A stretch of DNA of 64,000 nt from Vallitaleaceae bacterium 9-2 (lineage in GTDB: Bacteria; Bacillota; Clostridia; Lachnospirales; Vallitaleaceae): positions 1,736,001 through 1,800,000 of the forward strand of contig CP121691.1 in NCBI GenBank assembly GCA_038396585.1. Reading direction: 5' to 3'. Under the pieces are notes generated by a model. That model was not told where the DNA came from and ran no database searches. It worked only from the letters and a program-made list of their open reading frames with translations. The position numbers and the translations under genes are program-made. Below are positions 26,587 through 36,762 of the stretch, piece after piece; the stretch's first letter is position 1, and every line of letters begins with the position of its first letter.

Positions 26587-27180
26587 ATGATAAGTTATAT
26601 TCACGGTATACTGGTTGCAAAGCGTGAAGATTCAGTAATTATAGAATGCCAACATATTGGCTATGAAATTTTTGTTCCTTTAAGCGTCATAAGTCAGCTG
26701 CCAAGTATTGGATCAGAAGTAAAAATGCATACGGAACTTTATGTACGCGAAGATGTTCTACGACTTTATGGGTTCATATCGGATGACGATATTGATGTGT
26801 TTAGAAAACTCATTAGTGTATCGGGGATAGGACCTAAAGGAGCGCTTGGTATTTTGTCGACGCTGACCCCTGATGATTTACGGCTTGCGATTATGACAGA
26901 TGATTCAAAGCGAATAAGCCAAGCCAAAGGAATCGGAAAAAAAACGGCCGAAAAACTTATTATCGAATTGAAAGATAAATTAAAAGTTGTTGATCTAGAA
27001 GTGCTAAGCGCTTCAACGGAACAAACGTTACACAGTACGTATATTGATGAAGCTTTGATGGGCTTGACAGGTCTTGGGTATACAGAGACAGAGGCGCTTC
27101 ATGCAATTAAACATGCACAACACGCCGACTCAACGTCAGAGCTCATAAAGCAGGCACTTATTTTCTTAGCTAAGGAGTAG
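26587..27180 (+). CDS. ruvA: Holliday junction branch migration protein RuvA
   Basis: 197 residues: an OB-fold N-terminal domain ([21 protein letters not shown]), tandem helix-hairpin-helix motifs ([16 protein letters not shown] and [18 protein letters not shown]), and a C-terminal domain III that contacts RuvB. It binds four-way junctions as a tetramer. CTGGAGG precedes the ATG. ruvB follows three bases after the stop. Confidence 0.97.
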
Positions 27181-27182
27181 AC

Positions 27183-28181
27183 ATGAAAAAACGATTAATA
27201 ACCAATCAAATGATAGAAGAAGACATTGCTATAGAAACGTCGTTACGGCCCACATGTCTTGATGAATACATAGGGCAAGAAAAGGCTAAAGAAAATATAC
27301 GTGTATTTTTAGAGGCGGCAAAAAAACGTAATGAACCTCTTGACCATGTATTACTCTACGGTCCTCCTGGCTTGGGAAAAACCACACTAGCATCCATAAT
27401 CGGCCATGAAATGGGTGTTAATTTAAAAATTACTTCGGGTCCGGCTATTGAACGCCCGGGGGATATTGCTGCGCTGCTTAACAATCTCCAGGAAGGTGAT
27501 TTGCTTTTTATTGATGAGATACATCGATTGAATCGTCAAGTGGAAGAAGTTATGTATCCGGCGATGGAGGATTATGTCATTGATATCCTTATAGGAAAAG
27601 GCCCGGCGGCAAAATCAATTCGCTTAGATTTGCCTAAGTTTACACTAGTAGGAGCAACGACACGTGTAGGTCTCCTTTCATCACCGCTTAGAGACCGTTT
27701 TGGCGTTTTACATAAGCTTGAATTTTATACACCTCAAGAATTAGCGACAATCATCCACCGTAGTGCAAAGGTTCTTAATGTTGAGATAGATGCAAAAGGC
27801 GCTTATGAGATTGCACGTCGATCAAGAGGAACTCCGCGCTTGGCTAACCGTTTGCTTAAACGTGTACGGGATTTTGCGCAGGTAAAGTTTGAAGGGGTAA
27901 TATCTGAAGAGGTCGCAAAAGCTTCGTTGGATATGTTAGATGTTGATCCCTTAGGATTAGATAATAATGACCGTAAAATGTTGTTAACGCTCATAGAAAA
28001 ATATCAAGGCGGTCCGGTAGGGTTAGATACTCTAGCGGCAACGATTGGAGAAGAATCAGATACCGTTGAAGATGTCTATGAACCATTTTTATTGCAGTTA
28101 GGCTTGTTAAACAGGACACCGCGTGGGCGTATGGTAACACCTTATTGTTATAAACATTTTGGATTAGTTATGGATAATTAG
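27183..28181 (+). CDS. ruvB: Holliday junction DNA helicase RuvB
   Basis: 332 residues of an AAA+ motor. Walker A is GPPGLGKTT, Walker B is [10 protein letters not shown], sensor 1 is [20 protein letters not shown] and the C-terminal winged helix has [10 protein letters not shown]. It drives branch migration with RuvA. RuvC is not nearby, as usual in Bacillota, where RecU resolves junctions. Confidence 0.98.
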
Positions 28182-28198
28182 TATAATTAGGGGGATAT

Positions 28199-28741
28199 AT
28201 GGATAAAGAATTAATTTTATTAAATATCATTGAATCCGATGGAAATGTTAATCAACGTGTATTGGCAAAGGCTTTAGATGTGAGCTTAGGGACCGTTAAT
28301 CATATGTTGCAAGAGTATGAAGAAGAAAATATAATGACGCCGATTCGCAAAAAAAATCGTAAAGTAGAGTATCTATTGACAGATTATGGTAAAGAATATC
28401 ATAATAAGTTATTAGTCGATTATATTTCTTCATGTTTTGAAGCGATTGCACATATTCGTAAAAAAGTAAAAGAGCAGATATATTTGTTGCTAGATCAGGG
28501 TATCCGACAGTTTTTTATACAGGGAAATACAGATGAAATTAGTCGAGTGGTAAAGATGTGTTTAATTGAAATCAGCCGTGAACAGACAATATCATATGAA
28601 CTAATTAAAGAAGAGCAAGCATTTGATGAAATGCTACAAAGCATGAAAGCAGATGAGAAGACATGTTCAGCTGTCATTGGATGGTCCGTTTTTCCTAATC
28701 AAGATTATAATGAAGTACTATATAAAAATTTATTATCCTAA
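28199..28741 (+). CDS. Winged-helix DNA-binding protein of unknown role
   Basis: 180 residues. The N-terminal ~65 form a winged helix-turn-helix (ILLNIIESDGNVNQRVLAKALDVSLGTVNHMLQEYEEE), similar to MarR/Lrp-type regulators. The C-terminal ~110 residues have no motif I recognise and could be a ligand or partner domain. It lies between ruvB and zapA on the same strand, after a GGGGG ribosome binding site. The target is unknown. Confidence 0.65.
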   Translation: MDKELILLNIIESDGNVNQRVLAKALDVSLGTVNHMLQEYEEENIMTPIRKKNRKVEYLLTDYGKEYHNKLLVDYISSCFEAIAHIRKKVKEQIYLLLDQGIRQFFIQGNTDEISRVVKMCLIEISREQTISYELIKEEQAFDEMLQSMKADEKTCSAVIGWSVFPNQDYNEVLYKNLLS

Positions 28742-28762: not shown

Positions 28763-29086
28763 ATGGCACAAAAGAATGAGTCGAAGGTATTGATCGGTGG
28801 AAATGTGTATACGTTAAGTGGTGATGAAAGTGAAGAATACTTACAGCATGTTGCGCTATATATCAATAAAAAAATGCAAGAAGTTCAAAATTCAGAGAAC
28901 GGAAAAAAGTTGAATACACGCTTGCAATCGGTTCTTTTGGCGATTAACATTGCAGATGACTATTTTAAAGTGAAAACCAGTCTTGATGAAAAAGAACGTC
29001 AAATTGAAGAACTAAAAAAAGAAACAGATAGGTTGAAAAATGAACTTGATGATTACATTGATTTATTTGAACATGATGATTTGTAA
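28763..29086 (+). CDS. zapA: Cell division protein ZapA
   Basis: 107 residues. The N-terminal ZapA domain has KVLIGGNVYTLSGDESEEYLQHVALYINKKM, and the remainder is a long coiled coil (SLDEKERQIEELKKETDRLKNELDDY). It promotes FtsZ bundling at midcell. AAGGGGG precedes the ATG. In Bacillota zapA is often followed by a U32 peptidase, as here. Confidence 0.92.
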   Translation: MAQKNESKVLIGGNVYTLSGDESEEYLQHVALYINKKMQEVQNSENGKKLNTRLQSVLLAINIADDYFKVKTSLDEKERQIEELKKETDRLKNELDDYIDLFEHDDL

Positions 29087-29101: not shown

Positions 29102-31561
29102 ATGTTAAGTAAAGAAAAACGCCCTGAAATATTAGCACCGGTGGGACATATCGATGCATTTTATGCAGCAATCAAAGCCGGCTGTGATGCGCTATATTTA
29201 GGAGGGCTTGACTTTGGAGCAAGGGATTATGCAAAAAACTTTGATCATGATACATTGATCCAAATTGTTCGCTATGCACATTTACGTAATGTAAGAGTGT
29301 ATTATACCTTAAATACATTAATTAAGGATATCGAGTATAAAAAATTAGATACGGAGTTAAAATTTTTAGATACACTTTGTCTTGATGGCTTAATCATACA
29401 AGATTTAGGTGTTTTTGAATATATACGGAAAAACTATCCTACGTTTATACTTCATGGAAGTACCCAATTAAATATTCATAATGTCGAAGATGCACGTTTT
29501 TTTTATGAACTGGGATTTGAACGTGTAGTGTTGGCAAGGGAATGTCAACTAGGTGATGTTGAAGCAATTTGTTCTCAAGTTCCCATTGAAGTTGAGACAT
29601 TTGTTCATGGTGCGCTATGTTATGCATTTAGTGGTCAATGCTTTATGAGTAGTTTTTACGGAGGACGAAGCGGTAATCGAGGTAAATGTGCAGGCCCTTG
29701 TCGCCTACCTTTTACAGTGGATAATGCAGATGGATATTTTCTTAGTATGAAAGATCAAATGACGCTTAGTATATTGCCGCAATTAATTCTTGCAGGAATT
29801 GATTCCTTTAAAATTGAGGGGCGGATGAAAAATGCCGATTATGTATTTCACGCAACACGTTTATATCGAAAATATAGAGAACTTGCACTTACATGTATCC
29901 ATGAGAATCGAGTCCATGAATATAGTGTCGAACAAAAAGATATCAATTTATTAAAGGTTATCTATAACCGCGGGGACTTTACACAAGGCTATTATTATGC
30001 CCAACCATCTAGCCAAATATCAATCGAGCATCCAAAGCACCTTGGACTGAAGGTGGGAAGCGCAAGACTTGAGAAGCAATCATTAACGCTTACCTTACAT
30101 GAACCTTTGACAAAGGGAGATGTTCTTGAATGGCATGTACCGACAGAATATATGCATAAGGCAGAACATCCCACAAGTACATTGGATATGGATTGGACTC
30201 AAAAACAACTGAATCTTAAGAAAAACCTACCTATAGTTAAAGAAATTCTGGCTTTGTGTAAAGATAAAAAAATCAGTTTTCCGATATATAAAATATATGA
30301 TCCGGCATTTTCAAAAGATTATTATGCGGCGCATATGGAGCCAATAACTTGGGTTGATGTTCAGGTGAAGGCTAATGTTGGTGAGCCCTTAACTATGAAT
30401 ATGATCTTCATTGATGATCAAGGGATGGAACAATCCTTTCATGTAGAGGGGGTTGTTGTTGAACCGGCTAAAAAACGTCCTCTGGATGAACAACAGTTAA
30501 AAAAGCAAATCAATAAAATGGATGAACAAGTGTTTCAATTCAATAAGATTGATGTGTCAATGGGTGGTGATGGATTTGTACCTCTTGGGGCAATCAATCA
30601 ACTGCGACGCGATGGCGTAGCACTATTAGAAGCGCATAAGCTTAAAATGCAATGGGAGCAAAGAAAGCCTTATCAACTAAAAAACTTACTGCAAAAACAA
30701 GTGGAGTTAAAAAAAGAAGATAGAGCGATAAGAAGCCAGCCTCAGATACGTGTGCGTATTGCAACTACGGCTCAATGGAAAGGTCTTAAGGCAAGCTGTC
30801 AAAAAGAAAAAAAGGCAATTATTGAGCGAATATATATTGATTATACGGACATGCGTATTGACGAAATCAATAGCATCTTAATAGAGAAAGAGTCGATAGA
30901 GCCCAAGGCACAATTTTACTTGGCTTTACCACATGTTGTTTTGACCGCATCGAAAAAAAAGATGCTAGAAGATTTTAAGCAAATAGACATGCAAAAAATA
31001 GACGGATTTTTAGTACGCAGCCTTGGACAAATTGAATTGTTAAAAGCATATCAGAAACCCTTGGCCTCAGATTATAATCTACATGCTTTTAATCAAGAGA
31101 GTGCTAATTTTTTATCAGACTATTTTGATACGGTCACACTGTCTATTGAATTAAATGCAAGGGGAATGGAAGACATCATTAAACAAGCTCCAAAATTGGA
31201 CATCGAATGGATTAGCTATGGGCACATTGCATTGATGCACTCTGGCACCTGCGTTTATAAAAGCCGCTATGGAAAATGTGACTATACTTCAAAAGGCCAT
31301 TCAATGACCCTACAAGACCGTAAGCAAGAAGTGCAGCATGTCATGTGCCATTGTAAGTTTTGTTATACAACAATATATAATGCAAAAGCAACGAATTTAC
31401 TTGACTATACACAGCAACTCAAAGGTAAACATCGCATTGAATTTACGTATGAATCCGAAGAAGAAGTATATCAAAAAATGATAGAACTTTATCGCAATAA
31501 TACGATTGGATTTGACGAGAATAAAATGACAAAAGGTCATATTCAACGCGGTGTAAAATAG
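29102..31561 (+). CDS. U32 family peptidase (long, RlhA-like form)
   Basis: 819 residues. The N-terminal U32 TIM-barrel domain carries the signature ETFVHGALCYAFSGQCFMSS followed by GGRSGNRGKCAGPCRLPF, with conserved cysteines. The middle has a DUF3656-type region, and near the C-terminus lie more cysteines (CDYTSK, CHCKFC). E. coli RlhA of this architecture is needed for hydroxylation of 23S rRNA C2501 rather than proteolysis, so an RNA-modification role is plausible but not shown. AGGAGG precedes the ATG. Confidence 0.9.
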   Translation: MLSKEKRPEILAPVGHIDAFYAAIKAGCDALYLGGLDFGARDYAKNFDHDTLIQIVRYAHLRNVRVYYTLNTLIKDIEYKKLDTELKFLDTLCLDGLIIQDLGVFEYIRKNYPTFILHGSTQLNIHNVEDARFFYELGFERVVLARECQLGDVEAICSQVPIEVETFVHGALCYAFSGQCFMSSFYGGRSGNRGKCAGPCRLPFTVDNADGYFLSMKDQMTLSILPQLILAGIDSFKIEGRMKNADYVFHATRLYRKYRELALTCIHENRVHEYSVEQKDINLLKVIYNRGDFTQGYYYAQPSSQISIEHPKHLGLKVGSARLEKQSLTLTLHEPLTKGDVLEWHVPTEYMHKAEHPTSTLDMDWTQKQLNLKKNLPIVKEILALCKDKKISFPIYKIYDPAFSKDYYAAHMEPITWVDVQVKANVGEPLTMNMIFIDDQGMEQSFHVEGVVVEPAKKRPLDEQQLKKQINKMDEQVFQFNKIDVSMGGDGFVPLGAINQLRRDGVALLEAHKLKMQWEQRKPYQLKNLLQKQVELKKEDRAIRSQPQIRVRIATTAQWKGLKASCQKEKKAIIERIYIDYTDMRIDEINSILIEKESIEPKAQFYLALPHVVLTASKKKMLEDFKQIDMQKIDGFLVRSLGQIELLKAYQKPLASDYNLHAFNQESANFLSDYFDTVTLSIELNARGMEDIIKQAPKLDIEWISYGHIALMHSGTCVYKSRYGKCDYTSKGHSMTLQDRKQEVQHVMCHCKFCYTTIYNAKATNLLDYTQQLKGKHRIEFTYESEEEVYQKMIELYRNNTIGFDENKMTKGHIQRGVK

Positions 31562-31568
31562 GTGGATT

Positions 31569-34250
31569 ATGCAAAATCTAAGTATTGTGCTTAACTATAT
31601 TTATGTTATTATGTTGGCGGTTTTCACACTGAATATAATGGTCACATACAAACTCTCAACAGATGAAAAAAAAGCTTCGTTAACAATGGAGCAAATCATA
31701 TTGTTTGCTATGTGCTTTTTGGGCCATGGCTATATTCTCTTTAATAATGCAGTCGATCAAAAAGGCTTAACTATATTAGGTCTAAACGTCATTGCTATTG
31801 GTTTGTTTGTGTATGGAAGTCAACTTTCCAATTATCTCGAACCGATTGTATGGCATGTTATTGCCATGCTTCATTTAATCGGCTCCATTATGTTGCACAG
31901 ATTAGATCCGGACCTTGCTTTAAAGCATACTTTATTTGCATGTGTTGGCTTTATAGTGATGGTTGGTGTATTAGCAATCGTTCGCCGCATGAAAAAGATG
32001 GACAAACTAACATGGGTATATATCATCTTATCGGTGGCATTATTGTTTAGTGTTAATGCAACCGTCAATGGTGCGACAAACTGGGTCAATATTCGAGGCA
32101 TTACATTTCAACCTTCAGAAATTGTAAAAATATTGTTTGCATTTTCTTTGGCAGCTATTTTTCACAGTCAGAAAAACTTCTTAGGACTTGTCAAAGGATC
32201 TATGTATAGCGGTATGCTTATTCTTATCCTTGTATATCAAAGAGACCTAGGAAGTGCCCTTTTGTTTTTTGTTACCTATATTGTCTTGTCGTATATGTAC
32301 TATCAAAAAAGATGGTTGCCCTTTGCACAAATCGGTGTGTTAAGTGTTGCAAGCGTTGTTGCATATCAATTATTTTCGCATATTCAAGTACGTATTATCT
32401 CATGGTTATATCCATTTAATTATATCGACCGAGAAGGCTATCAAATTACTCAATCCCTCTTTGCATTTGCCCGTGGAAAATGGATGGGCACCGGATTGAT
32501 GCAAGGGATGCCTAAACGAATCCCGGTAGTAAATTCAGACTTTATTTTTGCAGCAATTGGTGAAGAACTTGGAAGCTTTTTTGTTCTTCTTACTATTTTT
32601 TTGTTTTATATGCTGATTATCATGTTGCTTGCCCAATGTCAAAAGAGTAAAAGACGATTTTTTCTATATGCAGGTGTTGGTATGACGGTGATGCTTGGAT
32701 TTCAGGGCTTTTTGATTATTGGAGGTGTCATTAAGTTGGTGCCCCTTACAGGAGTGACCTTTCCCTTTGTAAGTTATGGAGGAACATCGTTATTGACTTC
32801 TATAGGTATGGTTGGCTGTATTGACTTAATGAGCAAATTACCATGTCGAAAAGAAAAATATAGCTATAATGCCCATACATTGATTTCGTTAAAAGTTGTT
32901 ATGACTATCCTTTATATGGCGCTTATCGGATACTTTATGTTCTTTATCGTTGTTCAAAGTGAAGATGTACAGTTAAATAGTTATAATAAGCGTTTAGAAT
33001 TTATTGAAAAAGAAATTATTCGTGGATCCATTTATGATAGTACGGGAGAGGTGCTAGCATATACAAAAGTTGAAGGCGATACTCAACAGCGTATTTATCC
33101 GTTTGGCAATAGCTATGCCCATGTCGTTGGTTATACGAATCCCGGAAAAACGGGAATTGAAGCAGATTTAAACATGCAGCTTCTAGATAGCAACCAAAAC
33201 TTCTTACAGCAATTGCTTCGCAATGTCAAAGCACAAGAGCGCCGCGGAAGCGATATACATCTTACACTTAACCATACATTGCAACAAATTGCAGATACTA
33301 GTCTTGGTAATCGAAAAGGGGCTGTTGTAGCTATGGATCCGACCACAGGTAAGATCTTAGCAATGGTTTCAAAACCGGACTTTGATCCTAATGTTCTCTA
33401 TCAAACATATGGCCAATTGTCTACAGATGCTAAAGAGGCAACGTTGCTTAATCGTGTGACGAATGGATTATATCCTCCAGGCTCAACCTTTAAGGCATTG
33501 ACAGCGTTGACCTATATACGTGAACATTCAGAGCCCTTTTCTTATGTATGTAAGGGGGCGCACCAATTTGCAGAAAAAACAATTCATTGTTATGGTGACA
33601 CGGCGCATGGTGAAGTATCCATTAAAGAAGCTTTTGCATATTCGTGTAATACAGCTTTTGCGGTCATGGGAGAGGCTGTGACAACAGAGCAGCTTGAAGA
33701 GACTGCCAATGATCTGTTTTTTAACCAAGCACTTCCTTATGCGTATAACCATAAAAGAAGTCAATTTGGCTTCCCGGAATATGTGTCTGCTGCACTGCGT
33801 GCTGAGACCGTTATTGGGCAAGGAGAAACAATGATTACTCCTTTGCATAATCTAATTATTACAAGTGCTATTGCGAATGGAGGATTGATTGTAGAACCGT
33901 ATTTGGTTGATTATATTGAGAATCCGAACGGAAAAATTGTTGAACAAACATTACCTAATGGTTATGAGACAACGCTGACAGTTGATGAAATCAAAGCGTT
34001 GCGGGAATATATGGTAGCCACAGTTACAATGGGAACAGGAAAAAAACTGCGTAGTGACCACTATAGCGCTGCAGGTAAGACTGGGGCTGCAGAGAATCCT
34101 TTTGGAGCGACACATGCATGGTTTGTTGGATTTGCACCCGCACAAGAGCCGCAAATAGCGGTGTCTATTCTGGTTGAAAACGCAGGGTCCAGTGGTGCTA
34201 ACGCAGTGCCAATCGCAAAAGAGTTGTTTGATGCATATTTATTGAATTAG
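31569..34250 (+). CDS. SEDS glycosyltransferase-PBP transpeptidase fusion (RodA/FtsW + class B-like PBP)
   Basis: A single 893-residue ORF. Residues ~1-430 are a polytopic FtsW/RodA/SpoVE domain with about ten helices, RDLGSALLFF and the signature KLVPLTGVTFPFVSYGGTS (~390-406). A further helix (~440-462) leads into an extracellular penicillin-binding domain with all three active-site motifs: STFK (Ser639-Lys642), SCN (692-694) and KTG (837-839). Both halves look active, giving peptidoglycan polymerase and crosslinking activities in one chain. These are usually two separate interacting proteins. It starts 8 bases after the U32 gene. Confidence 0.93.
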   Translation: MQNLSIVLNYIYVIMLAVFTLNIMVTYKLSTDEKKASLTMEQIILFAMCFLGHGYILFNNAVDQKGLTILGLNVIAIGLFVYGSQLSNYLEPIVWHVIAMLHLIGSIMLHRLDPDLALKHTLFACVGFIVMVGVLAIVRRMKKMDKLTWVYIILSVALLFSVNATVNGATNWVNIRGITFQPSEIVKILFAFSLAAIFHSQKNFLGLVKGSMYSGMLILILVYQRDLGSALLFFVTYIVLSYMYYQKRWLPFAQIGVLSVASVVAYQLFSHIQVRIISWLYPFNYIDREGYQITQSLFAFARGKWMGTGLMQGMPKRIPVVNSDFIFAAIGEELGSFFVLLTIFLFYMLIIMLLAQCQKSKRRFFLYAGVGMTVMLGFQGFLIIGGVIKLVPLTGVTFPFVSYGGTSLLTSIGMVGCIDLMSKLPCRKEKYSYNAHTLISLKVVMTILYMALIGYFMFFIVVQSEDVQLNSYNKRLEFIEKEIIRGSIYDSTGEVLAYTKVEGDTQQRIYPFGNSYAHVVGYTNPGKTGIEADLNMQLLDSNQNFLQQLLRNVKAQERRGSDIHLTLNHTLQQIADTSLGNRKGAVVAMDPTTGKILAMVSKPDFDPNVLYQTYGQLSTDAKEATLLNRVTNGLYPPGSTFKALTALTYIREHSEPFSYVCKGAHQFAEKTIHCYGDTAHGEVSIKEAFAYSCNTAFAVMGEAVTTEQLEETANDLFFNQALPYAYNHKRSQFGFPEYVSAALRAETVIGQGETMITPLHNLIITSAIANGGLIVEPYLVDYIENPNGKIVEQTLPNGYETTLTVDEIKALREYMVATVTMGTGKKLRSDHYSAAGKTGAAENPFGATHAWFVGFAPAQEPQIAVSILVENAGSSGANAVPIAKELFDAYLLN

Positions 34251-34339: not shown

Positions 34340-34792
34340 ATGACTGAAGCAGTAAGTTGTGGCGGGGTGGTAATCCACAGAGGAAAAATTCTATTACTCT
34401 ATAAGAATTACAAAGGCAGATACGAAGGATGGGTCTTACCCAAAGGTACTGTCGAAGAAGGCGAAGAGTATAAAGACACTGCTCTACGTGAAGTGCAAGA
34501 AGAAACAGGCGTTAAAGGTAATATAATTAAATATATTGGTAAAAGCCAGTATTCCTTTCGGGTTGCCAATGATACCGTACTAAAATATGTACACTGGTAC
34601 TTGATGAAAGCCTACAATTATTACAGTAAGCCGCAAAAAGAAGAATATTTTGTGGATTCAGGCTATTATAAATTCCATGAAGCCTACCACTTGCTTAAAT
34701 TTCCAAATGAAAAGCAGATATTGGAACAAGCTTATGCGGAGTACCTAGAGTTAAAAAAATGTAATATGTGGGGAAACAAGAAGTATATGTAA
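34340..34792 (+). CDS. Nudix hydrolase
   Basis: 150 residues. The Nudix box GTVEEGEEYKDTALREVQEETGV fits GX5EX7REUXEEXGU exactly. The N-terminus (AVSCGGVVIHRGKILLLYK) resembles diadenosine tetraphosphatase/MutT-like members. The substrate cannot be assigned. AAGGAGG precedes the ATG. It is monocistronic, with its own promoter and terminator. Confidence 0.92.
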   Translation: MTEAVSCGGVVIHRGKILLLYKNYKGRYEGWVLPKGTVEEGEEYKDTALREVQEETGVKGNIIKYIGKSQYSFRVANDTVLKYVHWYLMKAYNYYSKPQKEEYFVDSGYYKFHEAYHLLKFPNEKQILEQAYAEYLELKKCNMWGNKKYM

Positions 34793-35118: not shown

Positions 35119-36762
35119 TCTGATTCATATCTGATAATGTCTTAAGTAACCACATTTGATTATGTCCCAAAGGGAAAGGATGTCGTATAATAGAAACTCA
35201 CTAAACGAACGAGGTTATATTATGCGAAAAATTGAACTTAACATGAAAGAACATCACAAATATGAAATTATCAAGAAACTTGTTGAAACTAACGGTAACA
35301 AACTCAATGCTTCCATCAAGATCGGCTGTTCCGTTCGCCATGTGAACCGAATGATTGCCGGCTACAAAGCAAACGGCAAAGGTTATTTCCAGCATGGTAA
35401 CAAAGGGCGAAAGCCTAGCATCACACTTGATGACGAAACCCGTCAGAAGATTTTGGATCTCTACCGCAACAAGTACTATGATGCCAACTTCTCACATTTC
35501 CAAGAACTCTTGGCAAAGTACGAACATATTCAGGTTTCTGCCACAACCATCAACAACATTCTAAGTACCGAATTCATCCTATCACCCAAGGCCAACCGAA
35601 AAACCAAACGAAGGATGAAGGAAAGGCTCAAGGCTATGAAAAAAATGGCAAAAGCGAAAAAGGACATCAAAAGAATCGACACTGCCTTGGTCGACATCGA
35701 TGATGCCCATCCCCGCCGTCCCCGCTGTTCCTTCTTTGGTGAAATGTTGCAGATGGACGCCTCCATCCACCAATGGTACGGTCAGACAAAGTCCCAACTT
35801 CACATCGCCATCGATGATGCTACTGGCTCTATTGTAGGCGCCTATTTCGACGAACAGGAGACACTTAACGGCTATTACAACGTATTCCATCAAATCCTAT
35901 CCAATTATGGAATTCCCTATATGTTTTATACCGACCGACGCACTGTTTTTGAATACAAACAAAAAAGATCCGCTTCTATCGAAGCCGATACCTTCACTCA
36001 GTTCAGTTATGCTTGTCATCAGTTGGGAGTTGATATTAAGACCACCAGTATCCCCCAAGCCAAAGGTCGGGTTGAACGGTTGTTCCAGACTTTGCAATCA
36101 CGCCTTCCAGTCGAACTTCGACTGAAAGGTGTGACAACGACTAAGCAAGCCAACGTATTCTTGAACTCCTACATAAAAGAATACAATGCTCAGTTCGCAA
36201 TAGACTCCAAGCATATCAAAAGTGTCTTTGAAAAGCAACCCCCTCAGGAAAAAATTAACCTCATTCTTGCCGTGCTTTCTGACCGCAAAATCGATAATGG
36301 TCATTGCATCCGTTACAACAAGCATTATTACATGCCAACAGGTCGAGATGGTTTGCCTAAGCACTTTTATAAAGGTACTAAATCTCTAGTTATCCAAGCT
36401 TTCGATAACCAGCTCTATACTTCAATCAATGATGAAACCTATGCCCTAAGGCTCATTCCTGAACATGAATACTCTTCGATTAACTTTGACAGCCTATCAA
36501 AAATATCCGAGCCTAAGAAGCAAACCATTCCCCCTATCAACCATCCATGGCGCCAGGCTACATTTGCGAACTTTGCAAAACAGCAACGCCATCGGATTGA
36601 CTTTGAGTCTGCCTGCTATACGCAGGAAGTACTGTCCAACTAGGACGACTCCGGTGCCTGCCTTACGGCGAGGATGGGGACGAAGCACCATAAAGAAAAA
36701 AGCCATGCACCTGACAGTGCTAATTATTAATTTTTTTTGGGACATTCTCAAAAACGGTTGAC
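35119..36762 (+). mobile_element. IS1202-family insertion sequence
   Basis: A 1,644-bp element with one transposase gene, bounded by a perfect 29-bp direct repeat. Its ends are imperfect inverted repeats: both read inward to TGAnAATGTC, 13-15 bases from the tip (left ~35132-35141, right complement ~36741-36750). Target duplications of roughly 24-29 bp are, as I recall, a feature of the IS1202 subgroup. Base and codon use are richer in C than in the neighbours, indicating recent acquisition. The exact repeats indicate a young, possibly active copy. Confidence 0.9.
35222..36643 (+). CDS. IS1202-family (ISNCY-type) DDE transposase
   Basis: 473 residues from the ATG at 35222, chosen because MRKIELNMKEHHKYEIIKKL is a typical family start; the frame is open back to 35156. 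An N-terminal helix-turn-helix (NKLNASIKIGCSVRHVNRMI) and a basic linker precede an RNase H-like integrase core. Candidate catalytic residues are Asp179 (LQMDAS), Asp238 (FYTDRRT) and Glu285 (GRVERLF). No frameshift or stop interrupts it, so it is probably functional. Confidence 0.9.
   Translation: MRKIELNMKEHHKYEIIKKLVETNGNKLNASIKIGCSVRHVNRMIAGYKANGKGYFQHGNKGRKPSITLDDETRQKILDLYRNKYYDANFSHFQELLAKYEHIQVSATTINNILSTEFILSPKANRKTKRRMKERLKAMKKMAKAKKDIKRIDTALVDIDDAHPRRPRCSFFGEMLQMDASIHQWYGQTKSQLHIAIDDATGSIVGAYFDEQETLNGYYNVFHQILSNYGIPYMFYTDRRTVFEYKQKRSASIEADTFTQFSYACHQLGVDIKTTSIPQAKGRVERLFQTLQSRLPVELRLKGVTTTKQANVFLNSYIKEYNAQFAIDSKHIKSVFEKQPPQEKINLILAVLSDRKIDNGHCIRYNKHYYMPTGRDGLPKHFYKGTKSLVIQAFDNQLYTSINDETYALRLIPEHEYSSINFDSLSKISEPKKQTIPPINHPWRQATFANFAKQQRHRIDFESACYTQEVLSN

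Follow-up and report, generated by a model that had tools for sequence, protein, structure and literature searches.

SEDS polymerases and class B PBPs are usually separate proteins. A gene of Vallitaleaceae bacterium 9-2 that reads through both raises the questions of whether the single chain is real, what it does, and how such fusions arise. The gene lies in a window of 64,000 nt, the whole stretch of DNA analyzed here (CP121691.1, positions 1,736,001-1,800,000, forward strand). As the initial annotation had claimed, it is an uninterrupted frame of 893 codons with an ATG start and zero internal stops (Table 1), and the motifs VSYGGTS (residues 401-407), STFK (639-642), SCN (692-694) and KTG (837-839) occupy the positions given. 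The SEDS part comes first and the PBP part second, in the same frame. A stop or frameshift between the domains was looked for and was absent, and the uninterrupted ORF recurs in another genome of the species and in two further ones of the genus (99, 82 and 55% identity, respectively). By sequence and alignment, the gene thus encodes a one-chain SEDS-PBP fusion in which the active-site residues of both halves are intact.

Table 1 Features of the fusion gene, its neighborhood in the window, and the SEDS genes of the sister genus g2 (coordinates of the latter refer to their own loci).
Feature	Coordinates	Strand	Basis
ruvA, start of conserved block	26587..27180	+	Pfam
ruvB	27183..28181	+	Pfam
Winged-helix protein of block	28199..28741	+	Pfam and locus comparison
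zapA	28763..29086	+	Pfam ZapA, E 1.2e-21
U32 peptidase family protein	29102..31561	+	ends 7 nt upstream of fusion
SEDS-PbpA fusion, 893 aa	31569..34250	+	ATG start, ORF reading, Pfam and relatives
N-terminal extension, residues 1-86, three predicted helices	31569..31826	+	model; solved-SEDS matches start later
SEDS polymerase domain, residues 87-424	31827..32840	+	PF01098; fold matches FtsW 8p1u and RodA 6pl6
Catalytic Asp D324	32538..32540	+	alignment
Linker, residues 425-434	32841..32870	+	model; divergence from G184
Transmembrane helix, residues 435-468, former PBP anchor	32871..32972	+	model helix, hydropathy
Small PbpA-type pedestal (PBP_dimer_2), residues 485-563	33021..33257	+	Pfam
Transpeptidase domain, residues 584-887 (STFK, SCN, KTG)	33318..34229	+	Pfam, sequence, fold
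NUDIX hydrolase, end of conserved block	34340..34792	+	Pfam and locus comparison
g2 SEDS, extra C-terminal helix, no PBP gene	L244 5270-6700; L245 6184-7581; L246 6786-8222	-	

Parts and active sites of the fused protein

Pfam placed FTSW_RODA_SPOVE at residues 116-418 (E 3.6e-59), the PF01098 score being 201 bits against a curated cut-off of 26.4, followed by PBP_dimer_2 (E 2.5e-10; 40.9 bits against a cut-off of 27) and the transpeptidase domain (E 1.3e-47). The class A PBP domain GT51 (PF00912) was absent from the Pfam matches of the fusion at E 0.001 and present in the genome's separate class A PBP. A whole-chain model from 68 rows (mean pLDDT 94.1, pTM 0.85) showed one long helix between the halves, residues 435-468, which hydropathy supports as the single transmembrane anchor preceding the PBP ectodomain. 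Because the 50 Foldseek matches listed for the whole protein were all PBPs, the SEDS half was modeled separately (mean pLDDT 89.8, pTM 0.91); it matched FtsW 8p1u (Z 36.3, 2.4 Å, 325 residues) and RodA 6pl6 (Z 33.0). Solved SEDS structures matched only from residue 84-90 onward, and residues 1-86 are therefore read as an N-terminal addition, with helices at 2-31, 39-60 and 64-86 in this model and a nearly identical arrangement in the whole-chain one.

The PBP half overlaid Mycobacterium tuberculosis PbpA 3upo over 406 of 442 residues (Z 51.6, 1.7 Å) and E. lenta 4mnr with Z 52.7, and the full PBP_dimer pedestal scored 21.6 bits, under its cut-off of 24.4. On its motifs, PBP_dimer_2 and fold, this half is a PbpA-type class B PBP. 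The suggestion that the fusion had a reduced pedestal held in part: the pedestal is small (PBP_dimer_2 has 83 positions, compared with 180 for PBP_dimer), but shrinkage through fusion was rejected, as a small pedestal is a trait of the PbpA family including separate PbpA. Of 295 genomes of the order, 229 had a PBP_dimer_2 match above the Pfam cut-off; among the best rows listed, nearly all frames, at about 420-620 residues, were separate PbpA.

Within the SEDS half, D324 aligns with D262 of E. coli RodA and D297 of FtsW in extracellular loop 4 and is kept in all 34 rows of its SEDS group. This residue and S639, K642, S692, C693, N694, K837, T838 and G839 were invariant in six fused rows, two of them from one species. 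Comparison with the same-species locus L038 gave 31.5 synonymous and 7.5 nonsynonymous changes, with zero nonsynonymous changes in the PBP half; judging from these counts, the fusion gene is under purifying selection. The homolog in the sister species (G184) is of equal length, and fast divergence is confined to the ten linker residues (pn 0.43 compared with 0.12 overall); synonymous sites are saturated in this pair, hence no ratio is given for it.

SEDS class, gene neighborhood and proposed function

In a 65-row SEDS tree with a midpoint root, a 100/100 branch grouped the fusion with 34 other rows, namely zapA-linked SEDS, other PbpA-paired clostridial SEDS and actinobacterial SEDS, and left the dcw FtsW/SpoVE and mre RodA rows on the opposite side. 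By this phylogenetic placement, the fusion is a member of a third, PbpA-paired SEDS class apart from FtsW and RodA. The sites of E. coli FtsW P196, Y242 and R243 fall at fusion residues 225, 271 and 272. With the long row L110 removed beforehand and two sequences counted twice, the Y242 site was His in 34 of 34 aligned group rows versus 2 of 30 other SEDS, and the R243 site was Val or Ile in 34 of 34 versus 0 of 30. The P196 site was Lys, Arg or Thr throughout the group (34/34, mostly Lys/Arg), compared with Lys in 2 of 30 and Thr or Arg in 0 of 30 other SEDS. According to the available text of one study, FtsW with Y242H or R243L is dominant-negative and makes no septal peptidoglycan, while the mutant proteins still reach midcell and bind lipid II and FtsI (PMC8765783). 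The group-wide occurrence of His and Val/Ile where FtsW mutants fail thus points to a cavity that seems to be differently built in the PbpA-paired group.

The fusion sits in a block with the order ruvA, ruvB, winged-helix gene, zapA, U32, fusion, NUDIX. Across 11 loci picked for comparison, the same block held a fused ORF in five (L038-L042) and two ORFs in six (L043-L048), with gaps: NUDIX was missing in L048, ruvB in L039 and L042, and no match to the winged-helix protein was found in L039, L041 and L042. In a wider set of 73 loci that extended 4.5 kb or more upstream, biased towards well-scoring relatives, zapA and U32 genes were present on the same strand in 50, and zapA was missing from 23, by title Actinomycetota, other Clostridia and one Acidobacteriia MAG. 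The window's genome encodes two further SEDS proteins, two further class B PBPs and one class A PBP. One further SEDS/bPBP set lies in a dcw cluster with MraZ, MraW, Glycos_transf_4 and FtsZ as matched by Pfam, and the other in a cluster with MreC, MreD, MinC and a MinD/ParA-type ATPase, so that the fusion is the genome's third SEDS/bPBP system. Downstream of the block, an insertion at about 35119-36762, between the NUDIX and sigma factor genes, carries an ISNCY-type transposase gene (35156-36643); it is absent from the same-species locus L038, and 29 bp of flank are repeated at both its ends.

The reading that we consider very probable is that of a vegetative one-chain peptidoglycan synthase of the PbpA-paired class, formed by the joining of two adjacent genes; its site of action is the least sure part. 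By analogy with RodA-PBP2, the SEDS part would polymerize lipid II and pass the strand to the tethered transpeptidase, which would crosslink it. The SEDS C-terminus and the bPBP N-terminus both lie in the cytoplasm, and fusion would therefore leave the topology unchanged. Artificial RodA-PBP2 and SpoVE-SpoVD fusions are functional according to the available text of PMC6207328, and thus a tether need not hinder the reaction. A 1:1 stoichiometry of SEDS and PBP would follow if no free PBP is made.

A vegetative rather than a sporulation role is favored because the genus lacks spoIVA, and a sporulation-specific role was rejected on that absence. In 12 genomes examined for spoIVA, which is only one sporulation gene, it was lacking in all four genomes of the genus and in that of g7, and likewise in the unfused G107 and G123; it was present in the fused G288, G003 and G363 and the unfused G098 and G177. 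Its presence and absence thus cross fused and unfused genomes, which argues against a tie between fusion and sporulation. As for the site of action, the zapA link makes division the best guess from gene order, with the zapA-linked pair perhaps serving septation here. Many Clostridia have been reported to be without canonical FtsW-FtsI, in the available text of a paper whose main text does not use the words fusion or fused (PMC10693644), so a zapA-adjoining third pair is a candidate. The neighborhood is weak evidence for a divisome role, since ruvAB belong to the block as well and zapA is missing from 23 of the 73 loci. A point against the synthase reading as a whole is the SEDS cavity, which at the Y242 and R243 sites is unlike those of FtsW and RodA.

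Three other explanations were weighed against this synthase. It is improbable that the fused ORF yields two working chains through an internal start or a linker protease that frees the PBP, although the linker is unconserved, in-frame ATG codons at 414 and 445 are also ATG in G184, and purified preparations of an artificial RodA-PBP2 fusion contained a small cleaved fraction, as described in the available text of PMC6207328. Eight in-frame ATG, GTG or TTG codons occur between codons 396 and 457, but none combines an SD-like site with conservation in G184: the sole SD-like stretch, 15 nt upstream of TTG409, is coding sequence of the SEDS YGG motif, and the codon in G184 is ATT instead of TTG. 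Moreover, all four genomes of the genus retain the frame.

The idea that the organism's own FtsW-FtsI or RodA-PBP2 pair was fused and moved has still less in its favor, and we give it very little probability. The NCBIfam ftsW, rodA and spoVE models do match the fusion, but all under their cut-offs; the genome already has a dcw set (MraZ, MraW, FtsZ) and an mreC/mreD/minC set, and its three SEDS proteins fall into three tree groups. The gene was found outside a dcw locus and the FtsW/SpoVE group, and likewise outside an mre locus and the RodA group and without a full PBP_dimer, so a moved dcw or mre pair is contradicted by both tree and gene content. A sequencing or assembly error is the remotest of the three. 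It is conceivable for single metagenome loci such as L049 and L051, where the closest relatives carry the genes separately, but for the window gene it is contradicted by the agreement of four genomes of the genus and by an assembly consisting of one 3.8 Mb contig (completeness 100, contamination 2.03).

Distribution and origin of the fusion

The fusion varies within the window's family, in which 22 genomes were searched. Five were fused (all four of genus g1 and the single genome of g7), three had SEDS and PBP ORFs that share a frame interrupted by one TAA (G107, G196, G036), ten had separate SEDS and PBP genes, and three of genus g2 had SEDS with no adjoining PBP gene; G190, an assembly of 580 contigs with completeness 89, was without a PbpA-type match. 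The loci of the three single-TAA genomes (L165, L166 and L167, respectively) stand one step from fusion.

That similar fusions exist elsewhere in the order and class, as had been supposed, was borne out by G288, G363, the frameshifted G003 and metagenome loci L049 and L051. One stop-free frame with both halves was found in at least 7 of 295 genomes of the order sample (G000, G069, G184, G048, G115, G288, G003) and at least 2 of 391 of the class sample (G000, G363), both lists holding best-scoring rows only and the counts thus being lower bounds. Five of 80 named loci were fused (L049, L051, L054, L060, L110); named Lachnospiraceae loci grouped with genomes of the order sample on the tree. Some of these cases are distinctive. 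In G003 (L176, L191) a frameshift lies inside the transpeptidase domain of the fused ORF, by decay or assembly error; the L049 and L051 fusions may be indel artefacts; and the SEDS-PBP fusion of L110, an Acidobacteriia metagenome locus, has 1066 residues and a very long branch. Full-span matches bearing stops were rejected as fusions, being two ORFs in the cases read (L130-L137, L164-L175). The full-span rows G318, G564, G493 and G513 of the class and G091 and G023 of the order also carry stops, and G464, listed with a long frame, is actually two ORFs with stops between.

The genome of L060 is a MAG titled Coriobacteriia, and 109 of 119 sampled genomes of that class, as counted by hand from the table, had both halves in one frame: 108 with one stop-free match over both and G762 with two matches in one frame. 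Nine of the remainder were without a PbpA-type match, and G767 has the halves on two contigs. ORF reading bore out the fusion in all 11 loci fetched (L227-L236, L238), the SEDS part of G762 being shorter. In the Coriobacteriia sampled, fusion is, as far as reading frames tell, the rule.

A quick tree of 156 rows without bootstrap, 10 of them fused, required at least six changes between the fused and separate states; gains and losses are not told apart in this count, for which L110, L176 and loci with incomplete genes were set aside. Among 146 unfused pairs, which include a few duplicate sequences, 113 overlapped and 24 were spaced 0-30 nt, with starts taken as the first ATG, GTG or TTG, a choice that favors overlap. 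As most unfused pairs overlap or lie near each other, fusion would be easy by a small indel or a lost stop.

The three g2 genomes may record a later step. They hold the block ruvA-ruvB-winged helix-zapA-U32-SEDS-NUDIX, with 158, 299 and 268 bp between SEDS and NUDIX; a PBP remnant sought in this interval by tblastn was not found (best E 2.2), PF21922 had no match in the three genomes, and Pfam recognized only the SEDS domain in the g2 ORF. The ORF ends in a hydrophobic segment whose best 19-residue hydropathy is 1.96-2.19, versus 2.42 for the fusion's PBP helix; SEDS tails of all 13 two-gene family members are short and charged. Identity within g2 is 54-66% for this segment, 38-43% for the preceding linker and 68-71% for the SEDS body. 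Phylogenetically, the g2 SEDS is sister to that of g1 (100/99) and g7 is next (97/97), the g7 row, root of the fused group, being on a long branch. Among the 13 helices of G022, the extra one is closest to the PBP helix of the fusion (score reached by 6 of 500 shuffles); that of G147 has the top score (13/500), with helix 336-358 equally good (11/500); and that of G058 is not the best (59/500), helix 2-30 reaching 12/500. By these alignments, the extra helix is modestly like the PBP helix in direct comparison, and in one of three genomes the likeness does not hold; an unrelated new helix is the alternative. The most economical account has the two genes fuse once, in the common ancestor of g7, g1 and g2, after which g2 lost the PBP ectodomain but retained the anchor helix; the g2 SEDS is thus probably a relic of a fused ancestor.

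A broader scenario appears unlikely to us in full: a third SEDS-bPBP class of ancient origin, its lipid II cavity remodeled, which in this order would be a zapA-linked vegetative septal synthase where the dcw FtsW/FtsI serve sporulation, with fusion as a ratchet after which one genus lost the crosslinker and kept SEDS plus the PBP helix. If the ratchet were true, the PBP membrane helix alone would support the polymerase.

Comparison with known systems

Antibiotics target SEDS-bPBP pairs, in which the way the bPBP activates the polymerase is still being worked out. Natural fusions offer one-gene reagents for this activation, and the series from two genes through the one-stop pair and the fused gene to, probably, SEDS plus helix amounts to a natural deletion experiment on the parts of the PBP that the polymerase requires. 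What stands out is that fusion recurs, that intermediates one stop away from it exist, and that the PBP half was probably lost again.

Natural SEDS-PBP fusions are already known in print, and the window gene adds one. Among the literature matches listed, the only statement was that of Nygaard et al. 2023 (PMC10449877), absence of others in print not being proven thereby; its available text says that natural SEDS-PBP single ORFs exist, the likeness to the present gene being SEDS and PBP in one ORF, and its reference list cites the Rhodococcus RHA1 genome. Rhodococcus belongs to another phylum. For Atopobium parvulum and Coriobacteriia, no paper on fusion was among the matches listed. The Coriobacteriia fusions share the domain order and the PbpA-type PBP of the window fusion, but they represent a separate change of state on the tree, and in the one locus scanned (L240) the fusion lies between PP2C phosphatase and PASTA kinase genes rather than in the zapA-U32 block. 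The residue numbering of the A. parvulum chains in PDB 4jbf and 4r23, about 523-947, hints at a fragment of a long fusion; the source of these chains is probably a Coriobacteriia SEDS-PbpA fusion.

The actinobacterial RodA-PbpA pair (M. tuberculosis PbpA 3un7, 3upo) has the same SEDS group and PBP fold but, unlike the fusion, consists of two genes in the loci read, e.g., Nocardia L127. For RodA-PBP2, the division of labor between polymerase and crosslinker is established. The RodA-PBP2 complexes (6pl5, 8tj3) share this division of labor and the SEDS fold with the fusion, a likeness that rests on half-by-half fold matches; they differ in having two natural genes, a larger pedestal, on which E. 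coli MreC acts according to the available texts of PMC6207328 and PMC10257715, and a SEDS protein of another group.
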